A DNA stretch of 64,000 nt, taken from the NCBI GenBank assembly GCA_963575745.1, contig CAUYUJ010017837.1, positions 1,663,613 through 1,727,612 on the forward strand, in the 5' to 3' direction. Source of the DNA: Prorocentrum cordatum (lineage: Eukaryota; Sar; Dinophyceae; Prorocentrales; Prorocentraceae). Below the pieces are notes generated by a model, which did not search any database, had not been told where the DNA came from, and saw nothing but the letters and a program-made list of their open reading frames with translations. A program made the position numbers and the translations under genes. Positions 24,582 through 61,053 of this stretch are shown in pieces; the first letter of the stretch is position 1; every line of letters begins with the position of its first letter.

Positions 24582-24630
<49 letters not shown>

Positions 24631-24940: not shown

Positions 24941-24944
24941 ACCT

Positions 24945-25355: not shown

Positions 25356-25367
25356 ACGTTGGTTCCA

Positions 25368-25507
25368 GATGGGAGTCACTGTGGCCACTTCTGCCTGCGC
25401 GGGGATGCATTCCCTTAAGGGTTGCGAATCTCTCCAGATCTAACATGAGATATCTTTACATATTACTTTTCATTGAGCGGCCTGCGCGGGCCACAGTAAC
25501 TCCCATC
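25368..25507. mobile_element. Small MITE-like element with 19-bp TIRs
   Basis: GATGGGAGTCACTGTGGCC at 25368-25386 is matched in inverted orientation by 25489-25507 at 18 of 19 positions. The 140-bp interval is non-coding and partly AT-rich. It has the size and shape of a miniature inverted-repeat element. No clear target duplication is visible because both flanks are repetitive. Confidence 0.5.
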
Positions 25508-25523
25508 CCGCCGAGCGACGGGC

Positions 25524-25566
25524 GGCGCTAACACCCAACGGGCCACGCTAACACCCAACGGGCCAC
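25524..25566 (+). repeat. CTAACACCCAACGGGCCAC motif, right set
   Basis: Two perfect direct copies of a 20-bp unit, GCTAACACCCAACGGGCCAC, inverted relative to the set at 24003-24055. Confidence 0.85.
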
Positions 25567-25574
25567 AATAGCAA

Positions 25575-25950
25575 ACGGTCGCCCGCCCCCCCCCCCACCC
25601 CCCCCCCCCCGCGCAACGCGCGCGCGCATGCAACGACAAAACGCGCTCCTACAATGCGCGCCCAAGTCGCTTCCCCAACACGCCAACTGTCAACGAACCT
25701 TGGTAGCTGGTTTTGATAGGGATGCCTTTGTCCACCTGCCATGTGTCGAGCTCGGCCGGATAGACGGGCATGCTAGATACGACAACGATTTCCACGTCGC
25801 CTAACGCGTGACTGGTCCATAGGAAACACTGTGGAACGCATCTATTGCAAACTTGCCTACTGGCGTTGAATGCAACGTGTCGCAGCGCAACGGGCAGCGA
25901 TGGTTAACAGCGCCCATGCATTTGGCCCCATCATATCTTCCTCGCCACAA
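25575..25950. other. No recognised gene
   Basis: C-runs at 25578-25609, then unique sequence. A minus-strand stretch reading VVSSMPVYPAELDTWQVDKG looks faintly coding and could be a downstream exon of the pseudogene at 25955-27075, but is not recognised. Confidence 0.35.
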
Positions 25951-25954
25951 GCGC

Positions 25955-27075: not shown

Positions 27076-27079
27076 ATTT

Positions 27080-27797
27080 CAATAAATCAGCGCCAGCTTC
27101 CCGCTCCACGGATGCGCGGGGGGGGCCCATCTGGGCGGTGGCGACGCAGCAGTTGCCATCGCGTTGCAGTGAAGGGTAGCTCTTCATAGGGCACACCGTC
27201 GAGCCAACATGCGCGTCGCATACGTGCGCCGTGATACGCGCGCGCCATGCCACGTCGCAGCTGTTCCACGCAGCGCACGCAGCACGCGTGCTTTGGTGGG
27301 GGCGGGTCTCGAGCGAAGCTCTAGAATAGTCCCGGGCCTGCGGCGGTGCTCGGTGAAAGAGAAGCCGCCTCAAGGAAAAGGGTGGGGGTGGGGAGTTGGG
27401 ATTCTCCAGGATGCCTCGCCGAGCTGGCTGCCTTCTCACGATGCATCGCCGATCTGACATGCCTATCACCCCCTAGCTGCCCCCATCCGCATTACCCCTT
27501 CTCGTTGGTGTGGGTTACCCCTTGGTGTGATGTTCCTCATGCTTCTCATCAAGTTTGCGCTGCTCGCAGTGCCCCTTCAATGCCTGCCCCGACGCCTCAG
27601 GGTCGTTCATGGGGGCGCCTTGTAATAGATGTATCGGCCGCTGCGAGTTCTGCAGCTTGCCCGCAAGCACGAATGTATACAATTCTGGGCGTTCCTTCCG
27701 ACTTCCGACTGCCGAGGAACCATTCGGTTTGCCGCGTGGTCCATCGTTTTTTTGTTTCTCTCTCTCTCTCTCTCTCTCTTTTTTATATCTCTCTCTC

Positions 27798-41952: not shown

Positions 41953-41985
41953 CCCAGAGGATCCGGGGTTCTATCCGTTAGAACC
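41953..41985 (+). repeat. Left terminal inverted repeat
   Basis: Begins CCCAGAGGATCCGGGGTTCT and continues to GTTAGAACC; pairs with 61021-61053 in inverted orientation at 26 of 33 positions. Itself contains an internal GGTTCTA/TAGAACC palindrome. Confidence 0.6.
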
Positions 41986-41997
41986 GTGGACCGTGGA

Positions 41998-42083
41998 TCT
42001 AACCATGTGGTGTTGTTTTTGATGGATAGAACCATATGATGATGGATAGAACCATATGATGATGGATATAACCGTATGATGAA
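41998..42083 (+). repeat. Subterminal GATAGAACC motifs, left end
   Basis: Three copies of a 21-bp unit close to TGATGGATAGAACCATATGA (starting near 42020, 42041 and 42062) plus a degenerate TCTAACC copy at 41998. The motif GATAGAACC recurs at 60954-61030. Clustered subterminal motifs of this kind are often transposase binding sites. Confidence 0.7.
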
Positions 42084-42106
42084 GTTTTGAATATTTTACT
42101 ACAAAT

Positions 42107-42123
42107 CATGTGGATCGTTTGTG
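42107..42123 (+). repeat. Inner inverted motif, left copy
   Basis: CATGTGGATCGTTTGTG; inverted copy at 60874-60890 differs at one base. Confidence 0.7.
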
Positions 42124-42369
42124 CAAGCATGCTGGCGTCAAGCAGCAGAACCTTCTCTGTTCCGTCAGCTTCATCGCCGACAGTGGAACGAGCCGACCGA
42201 CATGTTACAAATCATTGTAACTATAATGATGTGCCATGTGGTCGTAAAACATGGGCCGATGATGCAATACATTGGGTCGCAGCAGGGGCGCAATGCAACA
42301 TAAACATGCGATCTCCTGATTGGTTAAAACGCTGCCTCAACACAGCCACGTAGTCAATATATTCTCAAA

Positions 42370-42560
42370 TGCGGTCCGCCTCCTCCGCCTCCTCCTTATC
42401 ATCCTCCCCCTCCTTCTCCTCATCCTTTCCCTCTATTCCTCCTTCTCCTCCTGTTCCGTCTTCCCTTCTTCCTCCACATCCTTCCCCCTCCTCCATCCTC
42501 CCTCGCCCAGCCATCCCTCCTCATCCTCCCCTCCTCCATCCCTCGCATATCATCCTTCCC
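42370..42560. repeat. CCT-rich tract
   Basis: CTCCTCCTC/CATCC low complexity, no gene. One of several such tracts inside the 19-kb block (others near 45.2, 52.1-52.3, 54.05-54.15 and 58.5 kb), which mostly fall in introns or between genes. Confidence 0.7.
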
Positions 42561-42849
42561 TGCGGGCACCGTCGACCTCAGACTTGGGGTATGTCGATCG
42601 AAGGTCGAGCAGGGACGGGATAACAGAGAGCAAGCAGGCGAAGGATCGAGGAGGAGGAATCATGCAGAATGTTAATCTGCCAACGGCGGGCTGCGATTCG
42701 AAGCGAAAACGTGCTGCCGATGCCGTTCGGGGCACCTCGGCAGCGGCAGGCGTGGTCCCCGATCTCGCTTCGGAGCGGGAGGGTGCCTAAGCGGGTCTGG
42801 TGGGAATCTCCTGTTCCCAGGTGGACATGATTGTCATTGTTATCTATCT

Positions 42850-43542
42850 GATGAGCGTATGCTGAATCCCCCCCCCCGCAGAACGACACTCATGGATACC
42901 TGGCCACAGGAATCGTTCCCCTCGCACTGAAACGTTAATCATCGCAGCCTGGTTCTGCGCCCAACATCGCTGAGCATCCTCCTCCGCGGCTAATGCGGCT
43001 GCCCGTGCATTGGCATCGCGTTGCCGTTTGGTCTGGGGCCCAGGATCGGCGGCGGAACTACATCTCCCGTTCGCGCCCAAGTTCACGGGCCAGAGCTTGG
43101 GCCCATCGGGCCCGACACTTAGTTTTGAACACAGAGTTGGGATATGTATTTCCGCACCGCACCTTCGCCTCCAGCATTGTCAGATAAACCACGGCCCCTT
43201 CACTGCACTGCGCGCGAAGACCACATCTCCTGACAATGGGGTCCTCGCGCGCAGTGCAGTCCTATCCTCCTCGCTGTCCTCGCGATATTCCTCCGCCTCT
43301 GCTGCCATCATATCGCTAAACACGCCATCCAGGGTCGGGTCGACATTGGTCCCATCGGAGAGGGCGGCTTCCTCGCTCATTTCCTCGTGGCTCTCTGCGG
43401 GGTCGTTCTGAGTCCTCGCCCCCGCTGCCTCCGCCGTGCGGGTCTCCGCCAGAGCATGGCCGTCTGCGACGGTGTCCGTCGCCACAACTGTCACCGCGCC
43501 ATCTGCCGCCGACATCCGCTCATGGTTTCGCGCAGCACTCAA
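42850..43542 (-). CDS. Unidentified exon-like segments, minus strand
   Basis: Three coding-like stretches in different frames. AETRTAEAAGARTQNDPAES...LDGVFSDMMAAEAEEYREDS (43.45-43.24 kb), acidic, with MSAADGAVTVV upstream; EGAVVYLTMLEAKVRCGNTY, PNSVFKTKCRARWAQALARE (43.2-43.09 kb); and QTKRQRDANARAAALAAEED, AQRCWAQNQAAMINVSVRGE (43.05-42.9 kb). They could be exons of a fifth gene at the 3' end of the proposed element, or a decayed one. No domain recognised. Confidence 0.35.
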
Positions 43543-44043
43543 TGGATAAATCTAATTGGCCTTGGTAGCCGAGAACGAGACGGGGAATGGGATGCGCCGT
43601 TTTGTTTGGGACACCGGTTGCGGACAGAACAGAACGTGGGGCAACCCCCATGCACCGTGTCAGCATCCATGTTTCACCCGCTCATCGTTGTGTACCGCTA
43701 CTCAATCTTACACACATTTGTTCATAGTATCCTTCCATTGGTGACTCATAGGTCCTAGCTCATGTTTCACATCGACCCCCTTATGAGGAATGCGCGTTTC
43801 TGGTTTGGGGATGTTCGGGCCTGGTCGTATTCGGGGCGCAGTCACGGCTTATCATGGCAATTTCATGTTGATGGTCCGTCGTTGTTGTTGCGTCAGCAAT
43901 CACAGGGGCGATTATCACACATCTGGCATTATCACGTATACGTTTGTTCTCATTACGGGGAGAGTGGATGAGGAGTGTGACGGGCGTTGTGCAATATGGT
44001 TGCGGTGGTGCGCTGGAATGAGTATGAACCAGGGTAGGACATG

Positions 44044-44045
<2 letters not shown>

Positions 44046-44106
<61 letters not shown>
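44046..44106. repeat. GA microsatellite
   Basis: Uninterrupted (GA)n of about 30 units. Confidence 0.95.
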
Positions 44107-44109
<3 letters not shown>

Positions 44110-46100
44110 GAGCGAGAACGTACAATTGACGATATGGTGAATACCGCGACGAACGGTCAATGCCATTGTTATGCATTGCGAATTCCTCCAAACAGTGCTT
44201 GCTCGATAATTCGCATGGGCAAGGAGTCGACGAAAGTTCCACACCCCGTGCTCCATCGAAACGCGATTGTCTCAACACCATGCACGACCCGACCGCGCAA
44301 AGGGTCCACGCTGCTCCACATGGGCAATGCCGAGACGGCGTCCGATAGCGCGGGTCCACTAGGAACACAGAACATATTGACGACGACACATCGACGACGA
44401 TGGCGACGATTGCGGCGACGGCGACAAGCGGAGCTCGCCGCCACCCCCCGTGTACCAGGCCATACCAGCCGCTTCCAAGTCGCCTCTAAATCGCTTCCAG
44501 ATCGCATCCAAGTGGCCACACCAAGTCCAGACGCTCTAGTCGCCTCCACGCCAGGGAACGACGGACGGGAAGAGGACGACGAGGGAACAGGAGAGGAAGC
44601 GGATAAGGACACGGAGGGGGGGGCGAGGAGAGTGAAGTGAGGAGAAGAAGGAGACGAAGGTGAGATGGAGGATTTCCGAGACTGCGTCATGTTCCTCATC
44701 TTCATCATCATCTTCCTCCTCATATACGCCCGTCGTCGCATTATTCATCCCCCCCTCCTCTGCCGCCTCCACCCCTCCCCCCTCGCCCACATCATCCCAC
44801 GCCATTCTCTTCGTATAGTTCAGTCGATTCCTCATAGTTGTTCTTATCCTCTGTCATCTGTGCGTCGTCCCCTAGGCCTCCTCACACGTCCCCGCCCCCT
44901 CGTATGTCTCATGTTATCATCCCTCATCCGCCGCCTGCGCCTCCTCAGCAACATCATCATGGGGTCATCCTCGTTACATGCCCATCGCATCCGCCTCATG
45001 CGCTCACACGTGCTCAGCCTCGGTTACGTGCGACTGAGCAATTGCCGTCGACGGCGGCAGTGGCGAGAATGACGGAATGCCGACTTGTCAGGGGAGGCCA
45101 TCGCACACAGCAACGAGCCAGCAGTGACACGCATTCACAAATGATGCAGACGTGCGCACAGTGCGCGCACTTGGCGAGCACAGGATTATAGACATCGGCA
45201 GGTGGGTTCGTCGAGGAGGAGGGGGGGTGAAGAGGAGGAAGATGAGGATGGGGAGGATGATGGGGCGCGGTGGTGGAGGATGAGGAGGGGGAGGAGGAGG
45301 GTGGAGGAAGAGGAGGAGGAGGAGGAGGAGGAGGAGGAGGAGGAGGCGGACGAGGCGGATGGGGCGGACACGATGGATGAGGAGGGGAATCTAGAAGACG
45401 AGGGGGAACCGTCTCAAACATCGCACACCCAAATCACCATCTTGCCCGTCCTCCTCATCGTATTCATGCTCCTCATCATGGTCATCCTCCGTAGCATCCG
45501 CATCGTCATCATCTGTGTCCTCATCGTGTTCCTCTGTGTCAGCATCCTCATATTATCTGCATGTTCGTGATCAGTCTTTCATGTAGTCTCACGTGGCCGT
45601 ACGCCTTGCCCTTCTCATCTGCATCGTTACGTTCGCCGTCCTCGTGACATATGTCACCGCCTCGACTATAGTCATTACCAGTCTCATATTCCATTATACC
45701 CTCATCCTGGATAGCTCACCGAATCCCCAAGCTTACACTCTCGTACACGTATTGTGCCTCCCACCACTGCCTGGGCACGCGCGCCAATGGTCGAAGCAAA
45801 AAACAGCGCCTCGCTACGCGACGGCACCATGCAAATATTGAAAGGCAGCATTGGCACATGCTGAGCGTGCGAGCGCCGCGCGCCAGCAACTGATATTGGA
45901 GCTGAGAGATGCCTATCCAGCATGCTCGTCACGTGGCAGGTGTCATGTATGGTTATGGAGCTAGTCTTAACTGTCTATCATGTCAGACGCAACTCATTTC
46001 AGACTCGACTCAGGCCATATTCGGGCTCAATCAGCCTCGATCATCTTCAGACGCGCGCGATTTACCGTGACGCTAAACTGTGATCAGACTCGACCCAAAC
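44110..46100. other. No supportable gene
   Basis: Includes a GGA-rich tract (45210-45360) and CATCATCC/CGTCATCC low complexity (44690-45000 and 45430-45560). Frames open there are compositional. No recognisable coding sequence on either strand. Confidence 0.5.
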
Positions 46101-46112
46101 TCAACAAACACT

Positions 46113-46191
46113 CAATTCAGACTAAATTCAGACTAAATTCAGACTAAACTCAGACTAAATTCAGACTAAAGTCAGACTAAATTCAGACTCA
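46113..46191. repeat. 11-bp ATTCAGACTAA minisatellite
   Basis: About seven copies of an 11-bp unit, flanked on the left by degenerate TTCAGACTCGACTCA versions from 45985. Shares its period and TTCAGAC core with arrays at 51430-51556 and 57965-58117. Confidence 0.9.
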
Positions 46192-46336
46192 CAGTGTCAT
46201 GTCTATGGTGCCATGTCACCTGTTCGTATCACATTCTATGTTAGAGACATATGCTCAGTCTTCTAAACGGTGTGTTCGAGCTGATCGAGTTCTCTTCAAT
46301 TACTGGGGCATGTCTGGCTACTAAGTCAGTGAGCTC

Positions 46337-47690
46337 CTAGTCCGTTAACGCGTCTTGCCCGCGCTGCCGGCATGCGACCGACATCAAAACGAGAGTACAC
46401 ACAGCTTCACAGAACTCCTTAGGATAAACTGCAGAGGCATGCTGGTTCCGCCCGCAAACCCACACGTCTGGCCTCCAGCCAGTTGTAGAAGATCTCGCGC
46501 TCACGCGCCTGCCTCTCGCCTTGGGGCGAGGAGTGTCCTCGAACAAACGTCGAGGGCGTCGAAACGTGTCCTGCAGCCTGCGTTTTGCTACTTTGCACTC
46601 CACCTTGAGCATGCCGTTCACCACTTCGGGGTTGTGGGTGGTGGATAAAAACAATGGCTTCAATGTCGGAGCGCCAAACCCCCCTAGATATGTGACAACT
46701 CTATGCGCACCGATTGCTGACGAGGCGACCTCAATACACGGCATTTTTGGTAGGCTTGAATTCACAGGGTTTTCCAAGATACTGTACACGCTGCGAGCAC
46801 AGGCCAGCGTCATCAGCCATGACCTTGGTCGCACACATTGGTCAACATCTCACAATTTTTGACCCCCAGATCGATCGTCAAACTACCGACCTGTACATAA
46901 TCATCGTTGTCACATGTCGTCTCCCTTTCATCGTCCCATCGATCGTCGTCGACATCTCTAACAATCCACATCACCATCCTTGTCCTCCGCTTCCTCATCG
47001 CCGTCGGCCGATAGATCAGATCGCAATGCGCCCATCCATCTCTGGCGCATGTAGGGCTCGCGCGTCACCATAGCACACATGTTTGCTTCCAGCACCGGTC
47101 GTACGCGAGCATCCCCAAATATATTGTGATCCCGCCGCCCCGTCGTCGCACGTGTCATGTTAACCCAGGTGCTGCATTCGTTTTCGAACATGACCGTTGC
47201 ACCGTGGCGCAGTTGAAGTACTGAGTAACCTGCCCAGATGACCCCTTCCAAAGTGCAGGCGCCCTCAGATATGTGACCCTTCCTGAAGGATTCAGAAACG
47301 ACTCGACAGGGTCCAACAGGTGGCTATCCCCAGGGCACGTACTCACCCTGGGGGCAGCACCGAGTCGGAACCTGTTGATGCGTATCTCCCCTTTCGGATC
47401 CTGTCGAATTTACGGCTGGCGCCGCCTGCGTTTTGCACGAGGTCGCTCGCCATCCCCTCCCCGCAGAACATCTCGAACAAGTCGAGTACGCGAGGTGGGT
47501 CTCGACTCATCATTCCCTCCACCTCTGTCTGGGCCATCCGAATGATCTCCATCATGTTCGATTGGTTTAGCCTCCTCTGGCGCCTCGACGGCGCGAGCTC
47601 CTTCGACCTCTCCCTCACCCATCGGGGAATCCCTCTCGCCTGGGCTACCATCATGGCGCGAGAAGCATGGTAGATCGGCACTAGGAGCAA
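46337..47690 (-). CDS. DNA-methyltransferase-like protein, three exon segments
   Basis: Minus-strand gene in three pieces. Exon A (47690-about 47360): IPRWVRERSKELAPSRRQRR, SNMMEIIRMAQTEVEGMMSR, then the SAM-site-like VLDLFEMFCGEGMASDLVQN and KFDRI. Exon B (about 47236-47080): GVIWAGYSVLQLRHGATVMF, ENECSTWVNMTRATTGRRDH, NIFGD, ANMCAM. Exon C (about 46829-46337): ACARSVYSILENPVNSSLPK, HRVVTYLGGFGAPTLKPLFL, and a C-terminal YPKEFCEAVCTLV before the stop. Motif order (DLF-x4-G-x-G, CST, ENP, FGAPTLKP, AYP-x2-F) matches a multicopy dinoflagellate family resembling cytosine-5 methyltransferases (motifs I, IV, VI). The usual Pro-Cys reads Glu-Cys here (NECSTW), so catalysis is doubtful. Joining B to C cleanly needs a GA donor (ATGGT|GACGCG) and AAG|G acceptor; the start and the A-B junction are not resolved. 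It may be read as a continuation of the transposase-like gene upstream. Confidence 0.62.
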
Positions 47691-50390
47691 AAATGTAAGT
47701 GTTGCCGCCGACTTGGCCCAAAATATCGAAACAGTAGAACACGGATGTTTCCATTGTGCGTTTGTGTGCGGCCTGGGCGCACAACCTGAGTGCCAGGTTA
47801 AGATGCTCGTCAGTGAAAGTCGCTGTCACCTTTGGGTTGCCAAGATCGAAACTCCTCGAATGGTTCAGAAATGCGGGCGCGCTCTGTGGCCACGCGATAG
47901 GAATGCGAGGAGTGCCAGATGGAGAGGAGGGGCAGGGGCAGAAGCACAAGCAAGAGGAGGGCATGCATGCAAAGACGGAGGTGAGGGATGCAGAGGGTGA
48001 GAAAGACGAGGAGGCGGAGGAGGGGGGGAGGGAGTGGGGAGTGGAGGAGCTGATCTTGCTCCCCCCTCCCCACATCCTCCCAGTCAGCTGTGCCACAATC
48101 CCCGCCCCGTTGTTCACCGCCCAGGGCTCCTGATGGTAGGTGACCGAAGCTGTGGTGTTTTGGCAACTGGTGAATCCCGGCCTTGTCCCCCTCAAAGATA
48201 TGCACCGCGCACGTATCCAGGGGCTTCTGATATTCAGGAATCGTGAGCTGCGTTCGAGCTGACCGACATGTGTTGCACCACTCCTCTAACGCTAGCCCCG
48301 CACGGAGAAGATGCACACCCTTTTGGACCATGTGCAAGTGTTTCTGGAGCATGTAGATTGAGAAATTTAGCAATACGTGACATTCGGCTGCCTTTACCCG
48401 CATCATGCCGCCAGGGTGTGGGTCGGGACGATCTGACGGCAGAATCTTATCTGTGATTGTGCCAAGCCTCATGTCCGCGGGAACATCGGCGTAGTCGTAC
48501 CAAGACTCTAGATCGTGCACAAGGCGTCGAAGTCGGTTGGGGGCGTTTGTTTTCCAGGGGTTCGCATGCAAGACGCGCATGAATGCGCACGATGCGACCA
48601 TCATCATATTCCCAAGATATACAGTGTGCAGTGAATCGATCGCTAACGTTCTCACTGGGTTCGTCCCGGGGGCCCGAGAGAAAATCTGTGAACGATGTAT
48701 GACCCAATCGGTCTTTTTCTTCCCCGATATATCGTAATGCGTCCTCCAAAATACAGCTTCAAAGGGTAGATCGTACTGCTCGAACAAGTTGGGGTTAATC
48801 ATGGATGGGCTGGGGTCCAACCTATCAAGCCGTTCAAGGCCAAGTTCTGGAAAACCTGGAATCGAACTCATGAGCACTCAGCCCTTCGCCGATCTCCCAC
48901 TTATCTCATATGTTAGACATCCTAGAATGGCAGACCGAAGCTTCTCCGAATTAACATTGATGCGGATCTCGCACCGCTCACATGCTCTCTCGTATTCATC
49001 TTCGTCCCTGTCTGGGTACAACATGCCATCACTGGTAATAAAACCAGGCCCCGTGATGTGCATACAATCTTTAGGGCAATCGCATATAGGGCATGGATTG
49101 TACGCGTGTGCCCACGACGACAGGCCGAAACTTTTTTGGTACTCTGCCCAGTCCCCCTTCAGGTGTAAAATCATACAACGAAATCCCCCCAAGGATTCTC
49201 CAGGAATGTTCAGCTCATCGAAAGGGTCCCAGGGCGACCCGTCGTGTCGGCACGGAGGAACAGTCCCGTTGACGAGGGCCTCAAGCATCCACGCAGCGAC
49301 GTGAAACATCGCATGCACACTGCAATGGCCACCGCAACCGCATTCACAGTACTCCGATGTTCGAAGGAAGCCGAGGAGATGTCTCTTTTTCGTTATGAGG
49401 TTAATGATGCTCACACCCAACAGTGAGTCCGCCGACCCAGAAGGGTCCATGGCATATGACCACATCTCGGAAACACCAGCGTTTGGGGAGTTGGTGGTCA
49501 GTACAAGCCACGGTGAAACTGTTCCAACCACGTATGTGGTATTCGAGCGACCAACTCTGACCATGCACATGAGCTTCAATAACTTTGTTCATGTTACACT
49601 GCACCCCCAGGTGGAATAAACACGCACGCACGCACTCGTACAGCATGCGCGTTGAGTATGCGCTTGTATAAAACCACCCACAGCAACAGTGCGATTACAT
49701 GTGGCAGCTGTGGTTGCATTCGTGCGTGCGTGCGCGTGCGCGCGTGCGTATATCGATATGCACCATGGCGTATGTAGCTGTGCATGGGCGTCGGGTAAGG
49801 CGACAGCCCACGCGCTCGATTCTACCTGCTGACACGGGCGTGTATCGCACACCATCTGCATAGATACCAAGTGGTAGAGGGAACGATCCTGTCTCGGCAA
49901 GGGAGCGGATGGTCATCGGATTTGAAGCGTATGCTGGTAGAGACATCACACTATCGGGATTAGTCACGTCCCCCCGCCTGAGCATATCACGAAGGCCTGG
50001 TGTCGCATTTACCTCATTGGCAATCGTGTGCATCACTGATTTGAACACGACGCTGCGTGACTTCTGGGTTGGGTCACTCTTTGAGAATATCGGAATATCA
50101 GCTCTGTAATATGGCCCACCCCGTGGCATCCGACGTTTGATATGTTTCGAATAGCGGCCACTTGGCAGCCCTGGGGGGAGCGCTAGTTGTTTGAAGTTTG
50201 AACCAGGGACCCCACTCATAACTGCGTAATGTGATATGATGCACATGTCCTTTGAAGTAATACGCTTGCAGCTGCCATGTATCGCAAGCAGTGTATCGAA
50301 CAGTTTTGCAGAATTGAGTCGGGCCGCGGGTGTACAGTAGCGGTTGAATTTCCCATAACGCCGCGACATCTTGGGTTTGGGCAACAAACG
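47410..50390 (-). CDS. Transposase-like gene with introns
   Basis: Coding pieces, transcription order. Exon 1, about 50370-49830: MSRRYGKFNRYCTPAARLNS, SGVPGSNFKQLALPPGLPSG, VFKSVMHTIANEVNATPGLR, LPLGIYADGVRYTP. Exon 2, about 49480-48160, in two frames that overlap at 48878 (a further small intron or frame shift there): GVSIINLITKKRHLLGFLRT, SEYCECGCGGHCSVHA, CRHDGSPWDPFDE, CMILHLKGDWAEYQKSFGLS, PCPICDCPKDC, CERCEIRINV, IPGFPELGLERLDRLDPSPS, EAVFWRTHYDISGKK, TLAIDSLHTVYLGN, HQLPKHHSF. Exon 3, from about 47860: SFDLGNPKVTATFTDEHLNL, ALRLCAQAAHKRTMETSVFY. The conserved set (C-x-C-x2-C, GDWAE, PC-x2-C, D-x-LH-x3-LG, PKHH, TF-DE-LN) defines a high-copy dinoflagellate family. Its copy number and Asp/Asp/Glu-bearing motifs suggest a transposase; not verified. 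A broken relative lies at 25.9-27.1 kb. Exact splice sites and the C-terminal end are unresolved; the last frame stops at 47410. Confidence 0.62.
47865..48155 (-). other. Probable intron of the transposase-like gene
   Basis: Separates PKHHSF from SFDLGNPKVTATF, which are joined by about ten residues in relatives. The interval is pyrimidine/purine-skewed (CTCCTC on the sense strand), as are other introns in this block. A GT donor follows the AGCTTCG codons; the acceptor is near TTCGAG|GAG. Confidence 0.5.
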
Positions 50391-50753
50391 AGCTACCGTG
50401 AAGGAAGGGGGGGACAGACCACGAGCCGACAGTGTGATGTTTGGGTTAGGACCTCGGGAGTGTACAGACAGAGATCGGAACAAAGAATGCGAATGCGCAC
50501 CTGGGCGACATGAGGCGTTTACAGGCAGTGTCGCGAAATCATCGCGACTTGGGCAGTAGACAGTCCTCCAGTCATGCGCATCCACTCGTTCATCATTCGC
50601 GCCGCTGTGATCAGTTGTGGTGGTCGCACATGCTATAGTGTACCCTATCATTTACACGCATGTGTCATAGAGCGGCGTGGCACATGGCGTGTCTGCATTG
50701 CGCAATGTGGGCGTGGTGAGCGATGCGTGACGGAGGGGATGAGACTGGAACAG

Positions 50754-50940
50754 TCATTCACAAACGGAGCGCAGCACGAACATTGAAATTGCCCGTGTCG
50801 AGACGTTACGGTCAACAGAACGATGGCACAGCTTACATCTGCCAGGCTCGCACCCTACGGGCGCATGCGTCAAATACCAAGTGCTCACACCTGGCAAAGC
50901 ATGCGTCGCGCGAGCCTTCTCAGCGCCCTCGCGTGTGCTC
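50754..50940 (-). CDS. Possible 5' exon with Cys cluster
   Basis: Minus-strand frame EGAEKARATHALPGVSTWYL, THAPVGCEPGRCKLCHRSVD then RNVSTRAISMF has coding character and a C-x4-C-x2-C-H cluster. It lies about 0.4 kb upstream of the first recognised exon of the transposase-like gene; many transposases carry an N-terminal zinc cluster. Splice sites not identified. Confidence 0.35.
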
Positions 50941-51429
50941 GGGTCTACGCATGGAGCGACCGTCATCGTCCCTGATATCATGATCACCCACCTGTGTCGT
51001 CGTCATGGGGTACAATAGACCACCGTCATCGTGTTTAACATACATGCCATCGTCACCGTCGTCGTCGCTGGCTTCGTTGTGCGCTGCCTCAGCTGCTCTG
51101 CTGCATGCGCTACCATCTAAACCACATTCTAGCATATCATGATGACCATCAAATCGTCATCGCATCTGTCCGTGTATGCCCCATCCTCTGCCCACAACCC
51201 CCTCATCATATATATCATCTCGTTGCGCGCCTCACAGACCCTTCAGCGCCTGTGAGCGAGCATAGCAATAGACCCAGCACTGTTAAATTGTGCAGACTTG
51301 TGCACGCGGGACAGCAGGCAACGATCTATCCCAAGAACACGGCAACTTTCTGCCGAACAGAACGGCCAGCAGCATACCAGATACCAGAATTCTGCGGTGA
51401 ACCAAGGAAATCATCGGCCCCCAAATTCA

Positions 51430-51556
51430 GACAAATTCAAACGGTTTTCAAACGGTTTTCAGACGGTTTTCAGACAGTGAGTTTTATATGTGTTTTTACG
51501 CTTATTCTGAATTTCAGACGGTTTTCAGACGGTTTTCAGACGGTTTTCAGACACGG
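51430..51556. repeat. 11-bp ACGGTTTTCAG minisatellite
   Basis: Two clusters, 51430-51477 and 51517-51556, of an 11-bp unit ACGGTTTTCAG (core TTCAGAC across the junction), separated by about 40 bp. Located downstream of the coiled-coil gene. Confidence 0.88.
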
Positions 51557-51814
51557 TGTGTTTTCAGTGTGGTTTGGGCCGGCGACCGGTCCGCGGGGAG
51601 GTCCAACTGGGTATCTGTCGTATTATGCTGCCAGTGTTGCTGCCATGCCATCCGATTGAGCAAAACAACCATTCACGTGCAAGTGCGAACTCGGATTTGA
51701 ACAGACAGCATACACGAATTGCAGTTCGTTGGTCCCGACCCCGACCAGGATGCATCCAGGGGGGCCTTCTGTTCGATCCAAGCTAACAATTGCTACACAA
51801 TGGTTCGAGTACAT

Positions 51815-54800
51815 CTACTTAGCAGGCGAATCCTCGAACTCCATGCGGGACGCGTGCTGCCTGAGCAACTTCTTGGTCTCCAGCTGCAGCTTCCCCAGCG
51901 GCATCGTCATGCTGTTGTTCGCGCGCACCACGGCGGTCTCGAAGTCAGCATCGGACGAGCACCCCTTCTTGAACTCTGCGATCTGCTCCACGGTGAACAG
52001 GCTCGCAACCTGCTGGTCCTTCTTGAGAAGATCATTCACCTGCTGAGGAATACACCGCCAACTGCAGTCACCGCGTCATCCCTCAAGTTGTTCCATCTCA
52101 GCCGCCTCAATCATCCCTTCTATCATCCTGATCATCATCCTCATCCTCATTTCCACCCACACCATCCTCCCGATCCTCATCTTCATCCTCCTCCATATCA
52201 TCCTCATCCGCCTTCCTATCATCATCCTCATCTTCCGCATCCCTCATCCTCCTCCTCATCCTCATCATGAGTTAACCTCAATATCATCATTATCATCAGC
52301 TTCCGAATCATCCTCATCCATACATTTTATGATTCCAAATGACCTCGGTCAGAGCGTCATTCATGTGCTTGTTAAGCGACATGGGCTCGCCATCGGGGTC
52401 ATTGGGGTCGGAAACCTTGGCCATGGCCCACGCCCACTTCTTGTCGTTCTTGATGCTCTCCGAGACCGTGCGCGCCTGCGAGGTGACTATGTTGTAAACG
52501 TTCTTCACCTTGGAAAGAAAGCGGGGTCCAACGAATGCAGCTGCGTCCTCCTCATCCCCCTCTCATCACGGAGAGGGGGTGGGGGTGGTGGGATGAAGAT
52601 CGTCAATAGCAATGTATGTTAAGATGAGGGTAAGGGTGTGTAAGCGTGATGGTAGACTAGGAGGGGAGATGGTGCAATGTTAGGTAGCATGAGAGGCTGC
52701 GTATGATAGTATGCTGGTTAGTGCCATGACGGAATGAGGTGGCACATTCCACATGTCTGACCTTTCGGAACTCCACGAGCCAAGCAGGCGATTTGGTGGG
52801 CACCTTCTTGCCGTGGCCACCAGTGGGCTCGCCGTCGTTGCCGTCACCAGTGGACTTGCCAGCGTCGCCTGTGTCATCGCCCTGGTTGCACTTCCGCTTC
52901 TTGCCTGCTGGCGCCGCCTCCTCACCAGCAGCAGCTCCAGTCTTCTTCTTGCTCGCCCTGGACTTGGGCTGGGCCGCTGACGGCGCGGGCTCCTGGGCGG
53001 GCTCTCCGCTGGCGGCCTCGGGCGCAGGCAGCGCGGCAGGCGCGCCCCCAGCTGGCGCCGTCGGCGCTGGCAGGGCTGGGTCATCCATATGCGTCCATGT
53101 AGTCCACTTCGCATTGATATTCTTGTAGGTGTCCGTGAGCCTGTGGACGATGTGCAAATATTTCATCTGCATGGTGCCGTCGCAATACTCGAGCATCTCG
53201 CCGCCCAAGAGGATGCGGTAGTGAGCCCAGTTGATGGCCGCTCGAAGGCCCGCCCTACCTCCACCTTCCTCGACTGCGATCTTGGCCAGCGAGATGTACT
53301 GGCCATCCTTTGACTCAGCCTTCTCGTTGATCCCGCCAGCCTTGTACTGCACCCGCTGCGCCCACTTATCGAACTCCCGTTTCAACCAGTCCTGGCGGTA
53401 CGCGGCCTTGTCGCTGAACCCTTTCTTCTTCTTGTATTCATCTGCAAGTCCGTGGTTGGCGGCCTTCGCCCTCCTCCAATTCGCAGCCGCTGGATTTGGC
53501 GTGTTCTCGTCCAGGTCGAAGTAGAAGTTCTTCTTCTCCATGGCCAACCAGAACTCCCTGAACTCGTCGTCCATCTCCTCGTCGGTCTGCCCTGTGGCCT
53601 TGCGCTGCTCGTCGGCCCAGAACGGGTCCAACTTCCGAAGGGTTTGGATCCGCCCCAAAGATTCGGAATGGTAGATCTTAGCAAGGCGGTTGCTCGCGAA
53701 CTCGGCCGACGCGTCGTCGATGTTGCTGCCAGCGCATATGTCGTTCGTGATGAGCTGCACTTCCTTATCGATGTCCAGCAGGAGCTCCTTCTTCGACTTG
53801 TTGCCCATGAGCGTCGGATCTGCGCTTGACCCACTCGAATCAGAGGACGCAGTCGCAGCAGATGACGGCGGCTCCCTCTCGGAGCTGCGATTGCGAATGA
53901 GCTGCCCGACGATTGGCTTGCACCCCGCGCTCGCATCTGGTGACCCCACACCCGCAGCTGGCGCAGCAGGCTCGACTGAGGCATCAGCTGATGCGGAAGC
54001 TTGGCTGCCCTGGCATAGGTTCCAAAAAAGAAACAGAGGATGCGGGGGGGGAGGAGGAGGAGGAGGAGGGGGAGGAGAAGGACGATGAGGAGGAGGAGGA
54101 GGAGACGGAGAAGGAGGGAGAGCATGAGAAGGAGAGGGGGTGGACGGCGACGGCAGTGGCGCATCATCGTGACGGGGGCAGCACAGCAGCAACACAAACG
54201 CCATCTCCACCCCCAACAACAACACACCGTTTGCCACCATTGTCACGGATGATATCGCGACGTGGGGTCGCATGTCACGATCATATCCGTCATTTGAGAT
54301 GGTAGCCCCTCTCAATGCGGATGCGTTCGATGTGGCGGGCGCGGGTCGGACACAATTGATCAGAGCAGCAGCATGAGGACGAGAGAAGCACGATGTGAGG
54401 AACTGCTGGTGGGGGGATGTTAAGTGCATCCCGAGAGGTCCTCCCCACCAGGATAGTCACCGAGCGCAGGTTCTGCCGACCGAAGCAGCTTCTGACTCGT
54501 CTCGATCGAACGCTGCACCTCATCCATGCGAGCCTTCGCGAGCTTCTCTCTCTCCTCTGCCTGCTTCATCCCCTCACTCAGCAGCTCGTCTTGCCTGTGC
54601 GCCTCAGCGGTCGCCTTCTTGAGCTCTTCGATGCGCTGCCTCTGTGCGATCCTCTTCTCTTTCTTCTCCTGCCTTCTCCTCGCCTCTTCCTCAGCTGCCT
54701 CCTTCCTCTTGGCCTCTTCTTCGTCTGCCTCCTGCGCAGCAGCCCTCGCTTTCTTTGCAGCCTCATTGCGCGCCTCGCGATCTTCCATCCAGCGCTTCTG

Positions 54801-55685
54801 CTCGCGCCTCAGCCACTCGGCCCCCTCCTGTTCCTTCCTGGCTGCCTCGTCCTCCTTCGCCTTGCGCTCAGCCTCCTGGCGCTCAGCATTCTCCTCTGCC
54901 TCACGCGCAGCCGCCTCCTGCGCGATGACTGCTCTCCTCGCTTCCTCAGCCTCTCGCAGAACGCGTTCCTCCTCTGCCTTTAGGTCCTCGCTGTCGCTGT
55001 CGCTGTCCTTCGGCGCACTGTCCGTCGGCGCGCCGTCCTTCGGCGCCAGCTCCGCGAGCTCTGCCACGCCAGGGAGCTCGGCACCGCGAGGATCGCGATC
55101 TGGAAGCGGCGAACCACCAGCCTGCCAGGACTCACCAAGGCCCGCTGCACGACTCACCGCGTCTGCCGCGGGAGCAGTCGCAGGCAGACCGCCGTCCGTG
55201 CTGCCCGAGGCCCCCGAGGCGTCCTTTTCCTTCCGATCCTGCTCCTCCTCCTCGCAGAGCTCCTGCGCCAGCTTCTCCGAATCGATAAACTGGCGCACCT
55301 GGCACAGCGCATCCTCGTCAGAGTCAACCCCCTTCGCCGCGTTCGCCGTGAAGGTGCGCTGCAGCGGCCCGTTATCAGATGCATCCTCGGGAATGTCCAA
55401 GCAATGCGCAATCAATATGGGGGGGGGTGCCCGAATTATCGAGGGCCTTGTATGGGCGTTCTTCGCCACTCCTCACGGTTTCGGTCCATACTCCTCTTCA
55501 TCATGCCGCCTCATCCTCTTCCTGATCCTCCTGCTCCTCCTATTCTCCATTACCTCCACACCCTCCTCCTCTCTGCTCATCCTCCTCCTGATGTAGAGGG
55601 TACGCTCCCTATGGGGGTCCTCATGCAGGGTCTGCCCCGCTGGGGCGCCCTCGCTGGATGACACGTCCACGACGGCATCGCTCAT
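51815..55685 (-). CDS. Five-exon coiled-coil protein gene
   Basis: Consistent exon model on the minus strand. Exon 4 (52762-53999): MGNKSKKELLLDIDKEVQLI, LGRIQTLRKLDPFWADEQRK, EFREFWLAMEKKNFYFDLDE, WAHYRILLGGEMLEYCDGTM and a Pro/Ala/Lys tail. Preceding exon (54449-55385): acidic start, then a long Glu/Arg/Ala-rich helix (EEARRAVIAQEAAAREAEEN and on) predicted as coiled coil. Two short 3' exons, 52344-52508 (VKNVYNIVTSQARTVSESIK) and 51815-52039 (VNDLLKKDQQVASLFTVEQI), end ASRMEFEDSPAK-stop. Introns 54000-54448, 52509-52761 and 52040-52343 are all GT-AG and keep frame. The first exon probably starts at ATG 55685-55683 (MSDAVVDVSSSEGAPAGQTL); its donor is unclear. Roughly 880 residues in total. 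The exon-4 pattern recurs in a dinoflagellate family known to me only as hypothetical proteins; a structural or DNA-packaging role within the element is only conjecture. Confidence 0.65.
52115..52275. repeat. CATCCTCATCC low complexity in intron
   Basis: Repeats of ATCATCCTC/CATCCTC occupying most of the 52040-52343 intron of the coiled-coil gene. Confidence 0.75.
54040..54150. repeat. GGA/GAA-rich tract in intron
   Basis: Purine-rich GGAGGAGGA tract inside the 54000-54448 intron. On the minus strand it opens a long Ser/Pro frame that runs into the real exon, which wrongly extends the exon upstream. Confidence 0.75.
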
Positions 55686-55749
55686 GGTTGTGACTGGTAC
55701 GCGGTGGATCCACAATCTGATATCGTGGTATCGGTGCTGCTGCTTCATA

Positions 55750-56790
55750 TACTTGACCAGAAGCGGCTATCGCATCGTGAACGTGATCGGACCCCCTCCG
55801 CCACACATGCCCTATCATCGCACTACCTCCACTCATCCTCATCCTCCTCCTCCTGATCAGATCCCCCCTGATCCTCCTCCGCCTCCATTCCCACTCACCG
55901 GCCTCATGCTCTGAACCCGTTTTACCCCACCACTCCACTTAGGGTATGCGAGGGTGGAATTTCGGTGCGATTTGGGGATCGAGTCTTAATCGGCCAGACC
56001 AGACGCGTGAGACCCGCGAAAGAACGAGGACGATGACGATGCTCGTGGCGAGGTTAAGCGAGGTGGGAAATATGATGAGGACGTGATTGAGAGAGTTAGG
56101 GGGTCAGCCGAGCTGGACGTACCCATATGCAAAACCACAACCAGTTCTCGGCTCGTATTGGGGGAACCACAACTTAAACCCGATTGCATTTCAGGGGCCG
56201 ATTCGTTGCCACAAGTATGTGTGCAATGCTCTCTGACGCAGGTCGAACTTTTTCGTTGTTTTGCCTCGGTCGATCGTCGGGGGCAGTCCACGCCCTGGAG
56301 ACCTCATGACGAGATGCACGTCCATGGTCCCGTCCAAGACGACGGCCACGTTGTGCCCGAGCGGGTCCTGGGAATCCAAACACATGGAGGGCGCGTGCTG
56401 AAGGTGCGGACGGAGGGTCGAGGAGTAGGACGAAACAGACGAGGCTTAAGTTGATGAGGAAGACAAGGAGCACTACAGAGGATGAGTACGACCATCGAGG
56501 AAGATGAAGACGACGGGGAGCGAGAGGAGATGGGTGATGCGGGGGTGGAGCGACGACTACCCATGTACTCGACATCCTGATCCTAATCCCACCTCCACTC
56601 CCCTCTCAGTAGTCCCCCCCAGCCTGTAAATTACCCCTATGGGTCTCATCTGCCTTATGGGCATCTTCCCTATCTTTATATCTGAAGGTCAGTACCTACC
56701 TGGACCTCCTCCTCCTCAAATCCCTCCTCAGCCTTAACCATCGCGCCATTGTTATGCCCAGCCCCCGCTCCTCGTCAACGGTCTGCCGCA
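55750..56790 (-). other. Intergenic stretch with one exon-like frame
   Basis: Mostly CTCCTC/CATCC low complexity (55830-55900 and 56440-56540). One minus-strand stretch at about 56190-56390 reads MCLDSQDPLGHNVAVVLDGT, MDVHLVMRSPGRGLPPTIDR, GKTTKKFDLRQRALHTYLWQ and looks translated; it may be an extra exon or a small gene. Not recognised. Confidence 0.4.
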
Positions 56791-56791
56791 G

Positions 56792-59700
56792 CTAGAAGAA
56801 ACCAATGCCGATGATCGTGTCGGGCGCTGGCTGCGGCGGTGGTGCTGGAGGCGATGGTGCTGGCGTAGCCGTTGACATCGGGGTCGGGGAAGCTGCTGCC
56901 GTCGGCGAAGGTGGTGGCGGCGAAGCTGCTGGCAGCGCCCCCGAACCTGATGCCATCCCTGATGCCGTCGGTGAGCTCGGTGGCTTCATTGTAGACGGCC
57001 TCTTCATCACTGGCGGGGAGCTGCCATCGTCCTTTGCCGACGGCCTCTTCTTTGCTACCAGCGGCGCCTCATCATCTTCCTCGGCGTCGTCATGTTCACA
57101 TTGACTGTCCTCGTCATCTGCTGCTGGGGATTGGGGCCTCATTTCGCTGTCATCTTCCGATCCGTCATGATCTGAACCACCAGCATCATCATCATGATCA
57201 TCATCATGCGATGCAGTCTTCTTAATAACAGCTGCTTCACATGACGCGGACGGCCTCTTCTTTACAGTCATTTTCGTGCTCTTCTCATTGACTTTCTCAG
57301 CCTTGTCACGCTCCTGCATCCACTGCGCCTTCTGGTCGTCCAGCGCCTGCTTGTCTTTCTCGTTCGAAGCATATGCCGTACCCATTGACTGGAACAATTT
57401 GACACCATCCTCGTACTTGTAATGGGGCTTCATCATCATCTGGATCACCATCTGCAACCGTTTCCCGTCTAATCTCTGCCGCAACGCCAGAAATTGTTGT
57501 CCTTTCCGATTGTATGGCGATGCCCATATTCTGGTAGTCTTATCTTTCTTACCCTCGTAGAAAATGTGGTTCTTGATCTCCTTGTGCTTCATCTCAGCGT
57601 ACTCTTTCACAATCAATCCAGCCACCGTGTGGGTCGTGCCGTCCTCGAACACCGCCTTCACAGGGTCGTCGTCATCGCAGCCCGTGGTGTCGATCGGATT
57701 CGCCCACTCGATCGTGGGCTTCGTGCTCTTGCTCTTCAGCTTCTTGCGGCACGCAGCCTCGCTGGAGGGGTGGGGCGGGTCGTTAGTACGTCTCTGCTCC
57801 CGCCTGTAATAATGCCCATCCTCCTCATACCCCCAAGTATCCGGATCTGCCTCACACTATCTCGAGACAACTCGGCACTCGATATATGTGGCAGGTGCCG
57901 CGCGCACGATGATTTCAACCGTCACCAGACTGGCCCACACCAAACTGACCCAGACACCCAACTTGAATTCAGACTGAATTCAGACTGAATTCAGACTGGA
58001 TTCAGACTGAATTCAGACTGAATTCAGACTGAATTCAGACTGAAGTCAGACTGAATTCAGACGGAATTCAGACGGAATTCAAACTGAATTCAGACTGAAT
58101 TCAGACTGAATTCAGACGTCAAACCTGATACCCTACGATAATCAGTGGCCTCATCGCATTACTTCTCAGGTATCACTCCTCCGCCCCTCATCTTCGCCCT
58201 CGTCATCCTCATCCTCGCCCTCCTCATCCTTTCATCCGTTCCATCCTTTCCCCCTCCTCATCCCCCTCATCATCCTCTCGGTCTGGCCCAAGTCCCGACG
58301 AACCCACTACTTCGATTCTCCCGCAGCCATCTCCAGGCGGTCGAACTCGCACACCCACTCGTTGCACTGCACGCGGCCGCCCTTGTCCTGAGCTGGAACA
58401 TTCAAAGCTCAGCTCGTGATCGTCCGCCGTCCGATGCCATCCAGCCACCGACATCACCCACCAGCTTTTATCCTATCACGCCGTTCCTGGCCCCCACGGC
58501 CTCAAAATCAACCGCCTCAGCCTTTCCTCCTCCTCCTCCTCCTCCTCCTCCTCCTCCTCCTTGGGCTGAATGGCGCGGAAACCTGACGCCGTCAGACTGG
58601 CGGGTGATGGGGGGAGGATGGCGGGGAGACGGATCCAAGACACACAGAATGAGGGTGATATCTACGACTCCCCAGCTGTCCTCGGGCTCGTCGTAGAATG
58701 GCTTCAGCCACTCTGGCGCTGGTCGCCCGTCAGTCCTGGGAGCATATGTTTTTGCCCATGCTTCGCCTCCCCCTTCCCCATCCACCACATCCTCCTCCTC
58801 CTCATCCTCCTCCTGCGCCTCCTCCTCCTCATTCGCATACCCTCCATACCCTGCTCATCGGCCATGCCATCCATCATTCGCATTCCTCATCATCATTCGC
58901 ACTCCTCATCTTTCCTCCTCCTGCTCTTAACCTCGGCCCCCCTCATCATGCCACCATTGGGTTGCAAGTGGGCCATCGTCATCTGCATTTGCTATCGTGG
59001 GGTCCTGCACTTAGATACACCCTGTGCTACATGTCGCAGCATCGCTCGAATCCGACGTTCCCCAACAATGGGAGAAGTTGTAGCATAATGGCTGCACTAT
59101 TGCCCTCCCCCTCTCTATCGTCCATATCGTTCGCCATCTCCCCCCGTGTTTTCTTCCCTTCCCCCTATGCCACCTAATTCATTTCATCTCATTCCCCTCC
59201 TCTCCCTTCCTCTCCGCCCCTCCTACCAATCCCTTCCATTCCGCCATCTTCCAGCTTCCCCTCCGCTCTGTCATCCTCCCTTCGTATCATGTCCCTATCG
59301 TACCCTCCTCCCCCTGCATACCTCCTTCCCGTCCTCTCTACCTCTTTCCCGTCCGACGTCCGGCTTCGTCTTGCTCTTCGCGTCTCGCCGCGCCGTCGTC
59401 TAGCGTGGTCGCACCCTCCCTCGTCGTCATCGTCACCCATCCTCATCGTCATCCTCTGGCGGTGGCATGGCAAAGCCTATTGTGTTTTGTAAGCGTGCTC
59501 ACGAGCCCAACCAGCTGCTTCGTCTCCGAGGGCCCAGTCCCGCTTGGTGGCGAACGCCTTCAGCGGCACTTGGAGCGCTGCGACGGTGAGCTGCTCTGCT
59601 GGCGCGATCACCTGCTAAGGTGGACTACATCCTCTCCATCCTCCTTCGCATCGTCCTCACCATCTTTCTCCCCCCCATCCTGCTCATCGGCACTTCCACG

Positions 59701-60245
59701 CTTCGCACGTGCCTCCTCATCCTCCTCCTCTTCCTCCTCCTCCTCCTCCTTGCCAGCCTCATCCACATCCTCGTCCTCATCCTCATCCCCGCTCGCACTC
59801 CGCATCATCTTCATCCTCGTCCTCCTGCCCTCCCCCCAGAATCGTTCCATCCACCGTGGGGCTGCAATGGAATGTGAACGGGGTGAGGGTGGTGGCCATC
59901 GGAACTGCATATGATGGATGGGACAGGGCCCACGTGGGGCCTACGAAATGCGGGGCATCGTCAGAAGTTTTGGGCCCCGAATGGGGCCCGTCTAACTTTC
60001 CAGGCTAGCGCCCACCCTCCTTTTCATTCCTATCATCGCTCCTCCATTGCGGTTCACCCAGTCGCCTCGCGGAGCGCTGCGACGAGGCCAGCGTTCTTGC
60101 CGATCTTGTCGGCATCCAGCGGGTCCTCGAGGTCGGTGGAGTAGTCGACGGCGTCCGCCGCCGTGATCCACCTCTTGAAGATCCTCTTGAAGGCCTTCTC
60201 CATTCCCTCCCCGTCGCACGCGGGCTGCCGCCCTTTCTTCCCCAT
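56792..60245 (-). CDS. Multi-exon Lys/Arg-Pro-Ser-rich protein gene
   Basis: First exon (60245 to about 60067) starts MGKKGRQPACDGEGMEKAFK and runs to LVAALRE; the ATG is preceded by a stop-free stretch but is the natural start. Further exons: 59611-59503 (VIAPAEQLTVAALQVPLKAF, ATKRDWALGDEAAGWA, between CAG acceptor and GT donor), about 58737-58660 (TDGRPAPEWLKPFYDEPEDS), about 58387-58310 (DKGGRVQCNEWVCEFDRLEM) and the large last exon 57757-56792. The last reads AACRKKLKSKSTKPTIEWAN, KAVFEDGTTHTVAGLIVKEY, KEIKNHIFYEGKKDKTTRIW, ASPYNRKGQQFLALRQ, then KKRPSA repeats, an Asp/Glu block and a Pro/Ala tail ending IIGIGFF. The EIKN-x3-YE...RKG block with KRP(S/A)A repeats is a recurrent dinoflagellate family of unknown function. 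Exon 1 may use a GC donor (GAG|GCGACT). Phases of exons 2-4 do not all join, so at least one exon is missing from this model. Confidence 0.55.
57965..58117. repeat. 11-bp ATTCAGACTGA minisatellite
   Basis: About 14 copies of an 11-bp unit inside an intron of the 60.2-56.8 kb gene. Same period and TTCAGAC core as the arrays at 46.1 and 51.4 kb. Confidence 0.92.
58510..58562. repeat. CCT microsatellite
   Basis: (CCT)n of about 15 units in an intron; opens a Ser/Pro frame on plus and Gly frame on minus. Confidence 0.85.
58740..59500. other. Intronic, pyrimidine-rich
   Basis: CATCCTCCTC and CCCTTCC tracts between exons of the minus-strand gene. No further exon recognised, although the phase mismatch suggests one may be present. 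Confidence 0.45.
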
Positions 60246-60354
60246 CTTGGGGAAAATATGCTCGGGCCGAATGCGATCGATGTCGCCCCCGCCACCGCCG
60301 TGTCTCACCCCCTTCCTGTCATTGCCACCGTCGTCGCCATTGCGACCGATCCTC

Positions 60355-60490
60355 CTGCCTCCTCCTTCTCCTCCTCCTTATCCTCGTCCTCCTGATCGTC
60401 GCATCGTTTTCCTCCTCCTCCTTCTCCCTCTCCTCCTCCCTCTCCTCCTCCTCCTCCTCCTCCTCCTCCTCCTCCTCCTCCTCTTCGTGC
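60355..60490. repeat. CTC microsatellite upstream of first exon
   Basis: CTCCTC tract about 0.1 kb 5' of the first exon of the 60.2-56.8 kb gene; followed at 60590-60660 by a GGTGGTGAT tract. No promoter element recognised. Confidence 0.8.
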
Positions 60491-60873
60491 TTCTGCTCCT
60501 CCCCCTCCTTCTCGTCCTCGTCCTTGTCCGTTCCCGCCCACTCCTTGGCATCTCAACCCTCTTCACCTTCGCGCTCCCTGCCTCCATCCTGGTGGCGATG
60601 GTGGCGGTGATGATGGTGGTGATGGTGGTGGTGGTGATGGTGGTGATGATGCTGTTGGTGAGGATATAAGGGGCACAGGGTGATGAAAGAGAGGTGCTTT
60701 CAAGACCAGGGGGTCAGTGCAACTCTTGTGTGCGGCGATCGCAAACGCGTTCACGATGTACTCCTCACGATGCCAGACCCTGGCGCCCAGGACGGGAACA
60801 TAACACGAAAAGTGCAATCTATGCACAGGATGGTTCGCTAGCAAGCAGCGCACGCCATCAGCAACTCAACGAT

Positions 60874-60890
60874 CACATACGATCCACATG
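60874..60890 (-). repeat. Inner inverted motif, right copy
   Basis: Minus-strand CATGTGGATCGTATGTG, 16 of 17 identical to 42107-42123; located 163 nt from the right terminus (154 nt on the left). Confidence 0.7.
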
Positions 60891-60949
60891 TCCAGCCTTG
60901 TTTGCTATGTATGATGATATGATGTTGAAAAATAGTGTATTTACATAAC

Positions 60950-61045
60950 ATGGATAGAACCATGACAGTGGTGGTTAGAACCGTGCGAAAGGGGTCTATC
61001 GTGATAGAACCACAACATAAGGTTCTATCTGTTGGAACCGTGGAA
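60950..61045 (-). repeat. Subterminal GATAGAACC motifs, right end
   Basis: Motifs GATAGAACC (60954 and 61003), GTTAGAACC (60974), GGTTCTATC (61021) and TTGGAACC (61032), in both orientations, mirroring the cluster at 41967-42070. Confidence 0.7.
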
Positions 61046-61053
61046 CCTCTGGG
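61021..61053 (-). repeat. Right terminal inverted repeat
   Basis: Read on the minus strand it begins CCCAGAGGTTCCACGGTTCC and ends GATAGAACC; see 41953-41985. GC-rich flanking DNA resumes immediately to the right. Confidence 0.6.

Follow-up and report, generated by a model that had tools for sequence, protein, structure and literature searches.

The closest described systems are DNA transposons of the CMCT clade. According to the passages of PMC12730594 used here, its members are EnSpm/CACTA, Mirage, Chapaev, Transib, Plavaka, ESTA and Lanisha, its transposases carry D, D, C(2)C, H(3)H and E in that order, and some fungal EnSpm and Plavaka elements carry a TET/JBP dioxygenase. In dinoflagellates, DNA transposons are little described: the main text of a ten-year review of dinoflagellate genomes has "DNA transposon" once and "transposase" zero times (PMC11453091), and in titles, abstract starts and passages of the open-access literature no description of a large multigene dinoflagellate DNA transposon was found. 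The unit reported here occupies positions 41953 to 61053 of a 64,000-nucleotide stretch of Prorocentrum cordatum DNA (contig CAUYUJ010017837.1; the whole stretch is called the window). This interval is very probably a copy of a dinoflagellate DNA transposon of 19 kb with several genes, and our verdict is that it represents a new, large, multigene CMCT-like lineage. With its conserved gene plan and possible DNA-modifying enzyme, such a multigene transposon would be an agent whose part in the growth and silencing of these giant dinoflagellate genomes can be tested.

Other dinoflagellate elements were also compared. SymbioLINE-Dnmt and SymbioDIRS-Dnmt3, as far as excerpts of PMC5890265 describe them, resemble the unit in being dinoflagellate mobile elements with a methyltransferase (putative in the unit), and differ in being retrotransposons with a recognised DNA methyltransferase (DNMT) domain; no reverse transcriptase was found in the unit's open reading frames (ORFs) that were scanned. 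The profile scans covered a set of ORFs without gene A, introduced below. Introners of dinoflagellates (PMC7789003, PMC10666404, PMC11453091) likewise have inverted repeats at their ends but, from partial descriptions in these sources, are short, intronic and non-coding, the comparison being by description only.

Ends, copies and target sites

The ends of the unit were delimited by the following features.

41953 to 61053, minus strand: the whole proposed transposon copy, 19,101 bp, with genes on the minus strand and target duplication AA
41953 to 41985, plus strand: left terminal inverted repeat (TIR), starting with CCCAGAGG
61021 to 61053, minus strand: right TIR
41967 to 42053, unstranded: left subterminal TAGAACC cluster, four motifs
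60955 to 61027, unstranded: right subterminal TAGAACC cluster, four motifs
42107 to 42123, plus strand: left 17-bp subterminal motif
60874 to 60890, minus strand: right 17-bp subterminal motif, matching at 16/17 positions

The major data for mobility were obtained from the assembly (4,128,499,153 bases in 21,875 contigs), which was searched with the left 201 bp and the right 201 bp of the unit; the resulting copy counts are lower bounds. The left-end query gave 10 matches at 96-100% identity, and the right-end query recovered the 10 copies at 98-100%, together with eight sibling ends at 74-80% over their last 82-105 bp. At least 10 copies are therefore present, both ends being found in 10/10, at lengths of 19,038-19,241 bp. 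The original prediction of a DNA transposon had named the failure to find the end sequences together elsewhere as its own refutation; the ends stood together at matching spacing, 19.04-19.24 kb apart, in 10/10 copies. BLAST aligned each of the nine copies outside the window from end to end at 97.3-98.7%, as one piece or two, and homology ended at the termini. Pairwise identity without gaps among the ten was 98.3-99.9%, and two groups were distinguished, the window copy with c2 and c3 versus c4-c10. All ten copies end in CCC..GGG and are flanked by an exact 2-bp target duplication (AT, AA, AA, TA, TC, AG, GT, AA, AA and AA), which bears out the predicted transposon. The possibility that the copies are segmental duplications is contradicted by these duplications and by the differing flanks.

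Copies c2, c4, c8 and c10 sit in tandem repeats, and their joined flanks plus one copy of the duplication matched uninterrupted neighbouring units. The matches across the junction were 82% over 167 bp, 89% over 99 bp, 97.5% over 122 bp and 84% over 137 bp, respectively, that of c8 being the best. The empty sites that had been proposed as a check were thus found for 4/10 copies and, in the DNA around the copies, not for the other six. Copies c4 and c10 are 99.9% identical, lie in a tandem-repeat region, and have a common right flank (60/60 bp shown) and different left flanks; c10 has an altered left tip. A segmental duplication or end conversion is possible for this pair. Since c4 and c10 may share one origin, the data support a minimum of nine independent insertions. 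Neither solo ends nor short non-autonomous derivatives of the 19-kb family, also proposed as a check, appeared in the matches to the left end (10) and the right end (18).

Within the window, the TIR pair matches at 26/33 positions, as predicted, and is the sole inverted pair of at least 26/33 that is more than 2 kb apart and not low-complexity. The complexity cut-off was at first 22 distinct 3-mers, which excluded the pair, and was then relaxed to 19. Because one of four block shuffles also yielded such a pair, the TIR by itself is weak evidence, near the chance level for a scan of 64 kb. This equality with a shuffle is what favours reading the interval as a block of host genes whose terminal repeats arose by chance, a reading of negligible probability that we judge already refuted by ten full-length copies with 2-bp duplications. 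The case for the unit from the window alone is the coincidence of the TIR with the TAGAACC motifs, with a near-palindrome inside each 33-bp repeat, and with the 17-bp motif. TIR identity was 26/33 in 8/10 copies, and 16 and 13 in the two with altered left tips. TAGAACC occurs nine times in the window versus a shuffle mean of 3.53, and 8/9 occurrences lie within 101 bp of the termini. This predicted clustering is kept among the ten copies, with 3-4 motifs in the left 110 bp, 4 in the right 110 bp and none elsewhere inside any copy. The predicted 17-bp motif pair was recovered at 16/17, with no further match at up to 3 mismatches.

A difference in base composition from both flanks had also been claimed and was reproduced: the GC content is 0.562 inside the unit, 0.677 and 0.674 in the flanks, and 0.606 in the remaining window, and both boundary steps were jointly equalled by 0.06% of position pairs at the same spacing. 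The co-orientation of the genes, all on the minus strand, is weak evidence alone, since most P. cordatum genes are unidirectional according to part of PMC10666404. A smaller element around the transposase was rejected, as the 25 longest of 129 inverted repeats were 24 purine/pyrimidine runs and one local hairpin. Rfam and tRNA searches gave no match.

The transposase and its classification

49827 to 50369, minus strand: transposase exon 1, with the first catalytic D candidate (YADG); predicted splice ends
48137 to 49440, minus strand: transposase exon 2, with the second D (KGDW), C(2)C and H(3)H; predicted splice ends
47729 to 47869, minus strand: transposase exon 3, with the candidate last E (TDEH)

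The motifs YADG, KGDW, CPIC and HSFGH follow one another in this order, with TDEH in exon 3, and the surroundings of TDEH are identical in one sibling (FTDEHLNLALRLCAQAAHKRTMETSVFY). The identification as a transposase is backed by relatives, motifs and multicopy matches. A search of its own genome gave 5002 first-look candidates, of which 88 were scored, all with E values of 1.1e-99 or better and identities of 39-100%. The window copy is broken by an in-frame stop at 48878-48880 and by a frame lesion close to where exon 2 ends on its 3' side; both are private to this copy, and 9/10 copies have no stop in that stretch. A ratio of synonymous to non-synonymous substitutions of about 1:3 is expected without constraint. 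The ten copies showed 24:22 over 656 codons, which suggests, if that expectation applies, that the transposase is under constraint.

Transposase relatives were absent from the viral contigs and the genome contigs searched. In EukProt, 6/7 relatives carry the label Pyramimonas_sp, and two of the proteins so labelled, P0002 and P0005, are 98-99% identical to the window transposase (48137-50369). P0002 is 100% (rounded) identical to 5/10 genome copies and the window holds an exact dinoflagellate spliced leader (DinoSL); a green-alga host was rejected on these grounds, and the Pyramimonas_sp dataset probably contains Prorocentrum sequence.

A second, decayed transposase of the same superfamily was observed on the minus strand at 27129-25804, in pieces of 24-39% identity. 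A 34-amino-acid match with H(3)H at 23162-23061 (41%, E 0.003) presumably belongs to it, and the region 23061-27129 is interrupted by microsatellites at 24-25.5 kb.

In the passages of PMC12730594 that define the CMCT clade, C(2)C and H(3-4)H lie between the second D and the last E, and this arrangement, like the D, D, C(2)C, H(3)H, E order as a whole, was found in the window transposase. The unit also shares terminal inverted repeats with the clade as described there, and its 2-bp target duplication falls inside the clade range of 2-5 bp. It differs from the clade members in these passages in having no profile-level similarity, in its 19-kb size, and in its conserved genes A, B and C/D and methyltransferase-like exons. 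Among named lineages, the ten copies lack the CAC..GTG termini and 3-bp duplication of EnSpm/CACTA proper, the TGT..ACA or CATCA..TGATG termini of Plavaka, and the 8-bp duplication of Zisupton (KDZ). Subterminal repeats like those of the unit are also present in En/Spm. Judged from sequence, the CCC..GGG termini and the transposase fit no named lineage. We consider it rather probable that the unit represents a superfamily-level new CMCT-like giant transposon lineage, greatly expanded in dinoflagellates, with fixed A, B and C/D genes, a methyltransferase-like partner and TTCAGAC arrays.

Accessory genes and sibling families

60057 to 60254, minus strand: accessory gene A exon, 39% and 42% identical in two sibling loci
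58677 to 58822, minus strand: second conserved exon stretch of gene A, a short match (54% over 28 amino acids, 60% over 25 amino acids)
57968 to 58117, plus strand: TTCAGAC 11-bp array, about 0.1 kb before B; in 1/2 siblings
56792 to 57829, minus strand: accessory gene B, 36% and 38% in two siblings
54420 to 55472, minus strand: accessory gene C/D, first charged part; the protein P0009 includes both parts
52728 to 53808, minus strand: accessory gene C/D, main exon
52344 to 52517, minus strand: accessory gene C/D, next exon
51426 to 51552, plus strand: TTCAGAC 11-bp array, about 1 kb before transposase exon 1; in 2/2 siblings
46337 to 47660, minus strand: three methyltransferase-like exons directly behind the transposase, 55%, 70% and 53% in one sibling
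45998 to 46188, plus strand: TTCAGAC 11-bp array behind the methyltransferase-like exons

The sibling ends were particularly insightful for gene content. At 8/8 of these right ends a transposase (five at 74-75% and three at 67-68% identity) lies 9.6-10.0 kb inside in the same relative orientation, versus 11.5 kb in the window family. In each sibling family, the stretch from transposase to right end was read at one locus (2 loci). From the right end these gave A, a second A stretch, B, C/D, a TTCAGAC array of 9 motifs and transposase exon 1, so that the order A, B, C/D, array, transposase is kept in 2/2 loci at 36-80% protein identity (53-59% for the D part of C/D, 60-64% for transposase exon 1). 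A 4-kb piece of the second sibling held transposase exons 2-3 followed by three methyltransferase-like exons (1/1 read there). Because the same genes and order are kept, the accessory genes are deduced to be conserved components of the lineage rather than chance cargo. Co-occurrence of the gene families elsewhere in the same order, originally proposed as a check, was seen in both loci. Of the gene content first proposed, the transposase held; the methyltransferase-like protein stood as a sibling-conserved part and failed as a profile match, while B and C/D stood as sibling-recurrent genes.

P0009 matches the C/D gene of the first sibling at 99.7% over 337 amino acids and 96% over 244 amino acids. 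As it contains both parts, C and D are deduced to be one gene; the window C part matched its N-terminal part at E 6e-9, with a score of 232 exceeding all 300 local shuffles (maximum 184). The composition of the C part suggests a coiled coil, a reading of composition only. No C/D relatives were found in viral contigs. Copy c8 has a 178-bp insertion in D, and the stop at 57829, the start of ORF B, is present in 8/10 copies and lies upstream of the sibling-conserved part of B. The gene A exon showed 4:3 synonymous to non-synonymous substitutions, so that beyond the transposase it perhaps stands out against the 1:3 expectation. The copies are young, and a large share of them may be decaying.

The window contains 31 TTCAGAC motifs; 26 of these lie in the three same-strand arrays with an 11-bp period inside the unit, and each of the ten copies has 26-33. 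That the arrays are regulatory is a guess. Matches in viral contigs to the exact end palindrome (2) and to the TTCAGAC array (2) were judged to be chance.

The methyltransferase-like part contains LDLFEMFCGEG (LDVFEMFCGKG in the sibling), which resembles methyltransferase motif I; the label derives from this motif. Its sibling conservation shows that it belongs to the element and says nothing on its activity. Fungal EnSpm and Plavaka elements, as described in portions of PMC12730594, are alike in combining a CMCT-type transposon with an enzyme possibly acting on DNA modification, and differ in that theirs is a dioxygenase whereas the unit has a methyltransferase-like domain of putative activity. 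If the assignment is true, the lineage would mirror the fungal demethylating-enzyme transposons with opposite chemistry, and would be a transposon of several genes that keeps a stable genome plan.

It is quite unlikely that the unit is mobile while its accessory genes and methyltransferase-like exons are passive passengers acquired by nesting. The substitution ratios of B, C and D near the unconstrained expectation would fit passengers, as would a hint of two classes of GC content at third codon positions (GC3), a weak hint as no host gene was measured. Two sibling families keep these genes, their order and their orientation at 36-60% protein identity, and one sibling has the methyltransferase-like exons, which argues for components of the element. 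The narrower idea of A, B and C/D as passengers with host-like GC3 was dropped, given a GC3 of 0.75 also in ORF1 of the long interspersed nuclear element (LINE) described below and the conservation in siblings. A virus-derived or virus-like (Polinton-like) element with structural A, B and C/D is very unlikely: size, terminal repeats and conserved genes of unassigned function are consistent with it, but the transposase is of CMCT type and the ORFs scanned gave no Pfam match to capsid, ATPase, protease, polymerase or integrase genes.

For the preferred reading, a mobile multigene CMCT-like element, we propose that the unit bounded by the CCCAGAGG repeats would move as a whole, duplicating 2 bp of target, presumably by cut-and-paste rather than by a copying route, with the subterminal motifs as candidate binding sites. 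The methyltransferase-like exons could act by modifying the DNA of the element and thereby influence silencing, and A, B and C/D perhaps serve as partners in DNA binding or assembly, for which TnpA of En/Spm is a model.

Several observations weigh against this reading. Mobility was read from genome copies and not from observed transposition, c4 and c10 may not be independent insertions given their common right flank and 99.9% identity, and 6/10 copies had no empty-unit match in a comparison of the DNA around the copies. The sibling families are known from right ends, not left ends, and two of the three ends at 67-68% (L046 and L048) have a flank in common and are possibly a single insertion. 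CMCT termini are mostly 5'-CA..TG-3' in the passages cited above, versus CCC..GGG in 10/10 copies here. The transposase had no Pfam match up to E 10 and no PDB match, and nothing in the ORFs scanned rose above cut-off in Pfam, NCBIfam or PDB; the methyltransferase-like part, with a guessed splice, likewise matched none of the three, and C5 DNA methyltransferase profiles gave 0 families. Sub-threshold matches to DUF5753 (a plus-strand ORF), SASA, Cwf15, BUD22, DUF6906, RNase E and a sigma factor were dismissed. AlphaFold models were unusable for the transposase core (mean predicted local distance difference test, pLDDT, 36.9) and for C/D (pLDDT 40.8). Synonymous to non-synonymous ratios of 11:25 for D, 8:15 for C, 5:21 for B and 7:11 for the methyltransferase-like exons point to weak or no constraint among the young copies.

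Other features of the window

A tandem duplication of 113 bp with 94% matches was observed at 22502-22731, where CCCGAGTTAC palindromes are abundant. A LINE lies at 3309-8752 on the minus strand and starts with the exact 21/21 DinoSL (8713-8733). Its two long open frames are at 7424-8833 and, with endonuclease and reverse transcriptase, at 3445-7503; viral contigs contained no relatives. An unbroken run of 70 A (T70 at 3326-3395) forms its end, and an 18-bp direct repeat (3309-3326 and 8735-8752) lies on either side, to be read with caution as similar short tandem repeats adjoin the left copy. Its appearance is that of a trans-spliced LINE transcript inserted not long ago.

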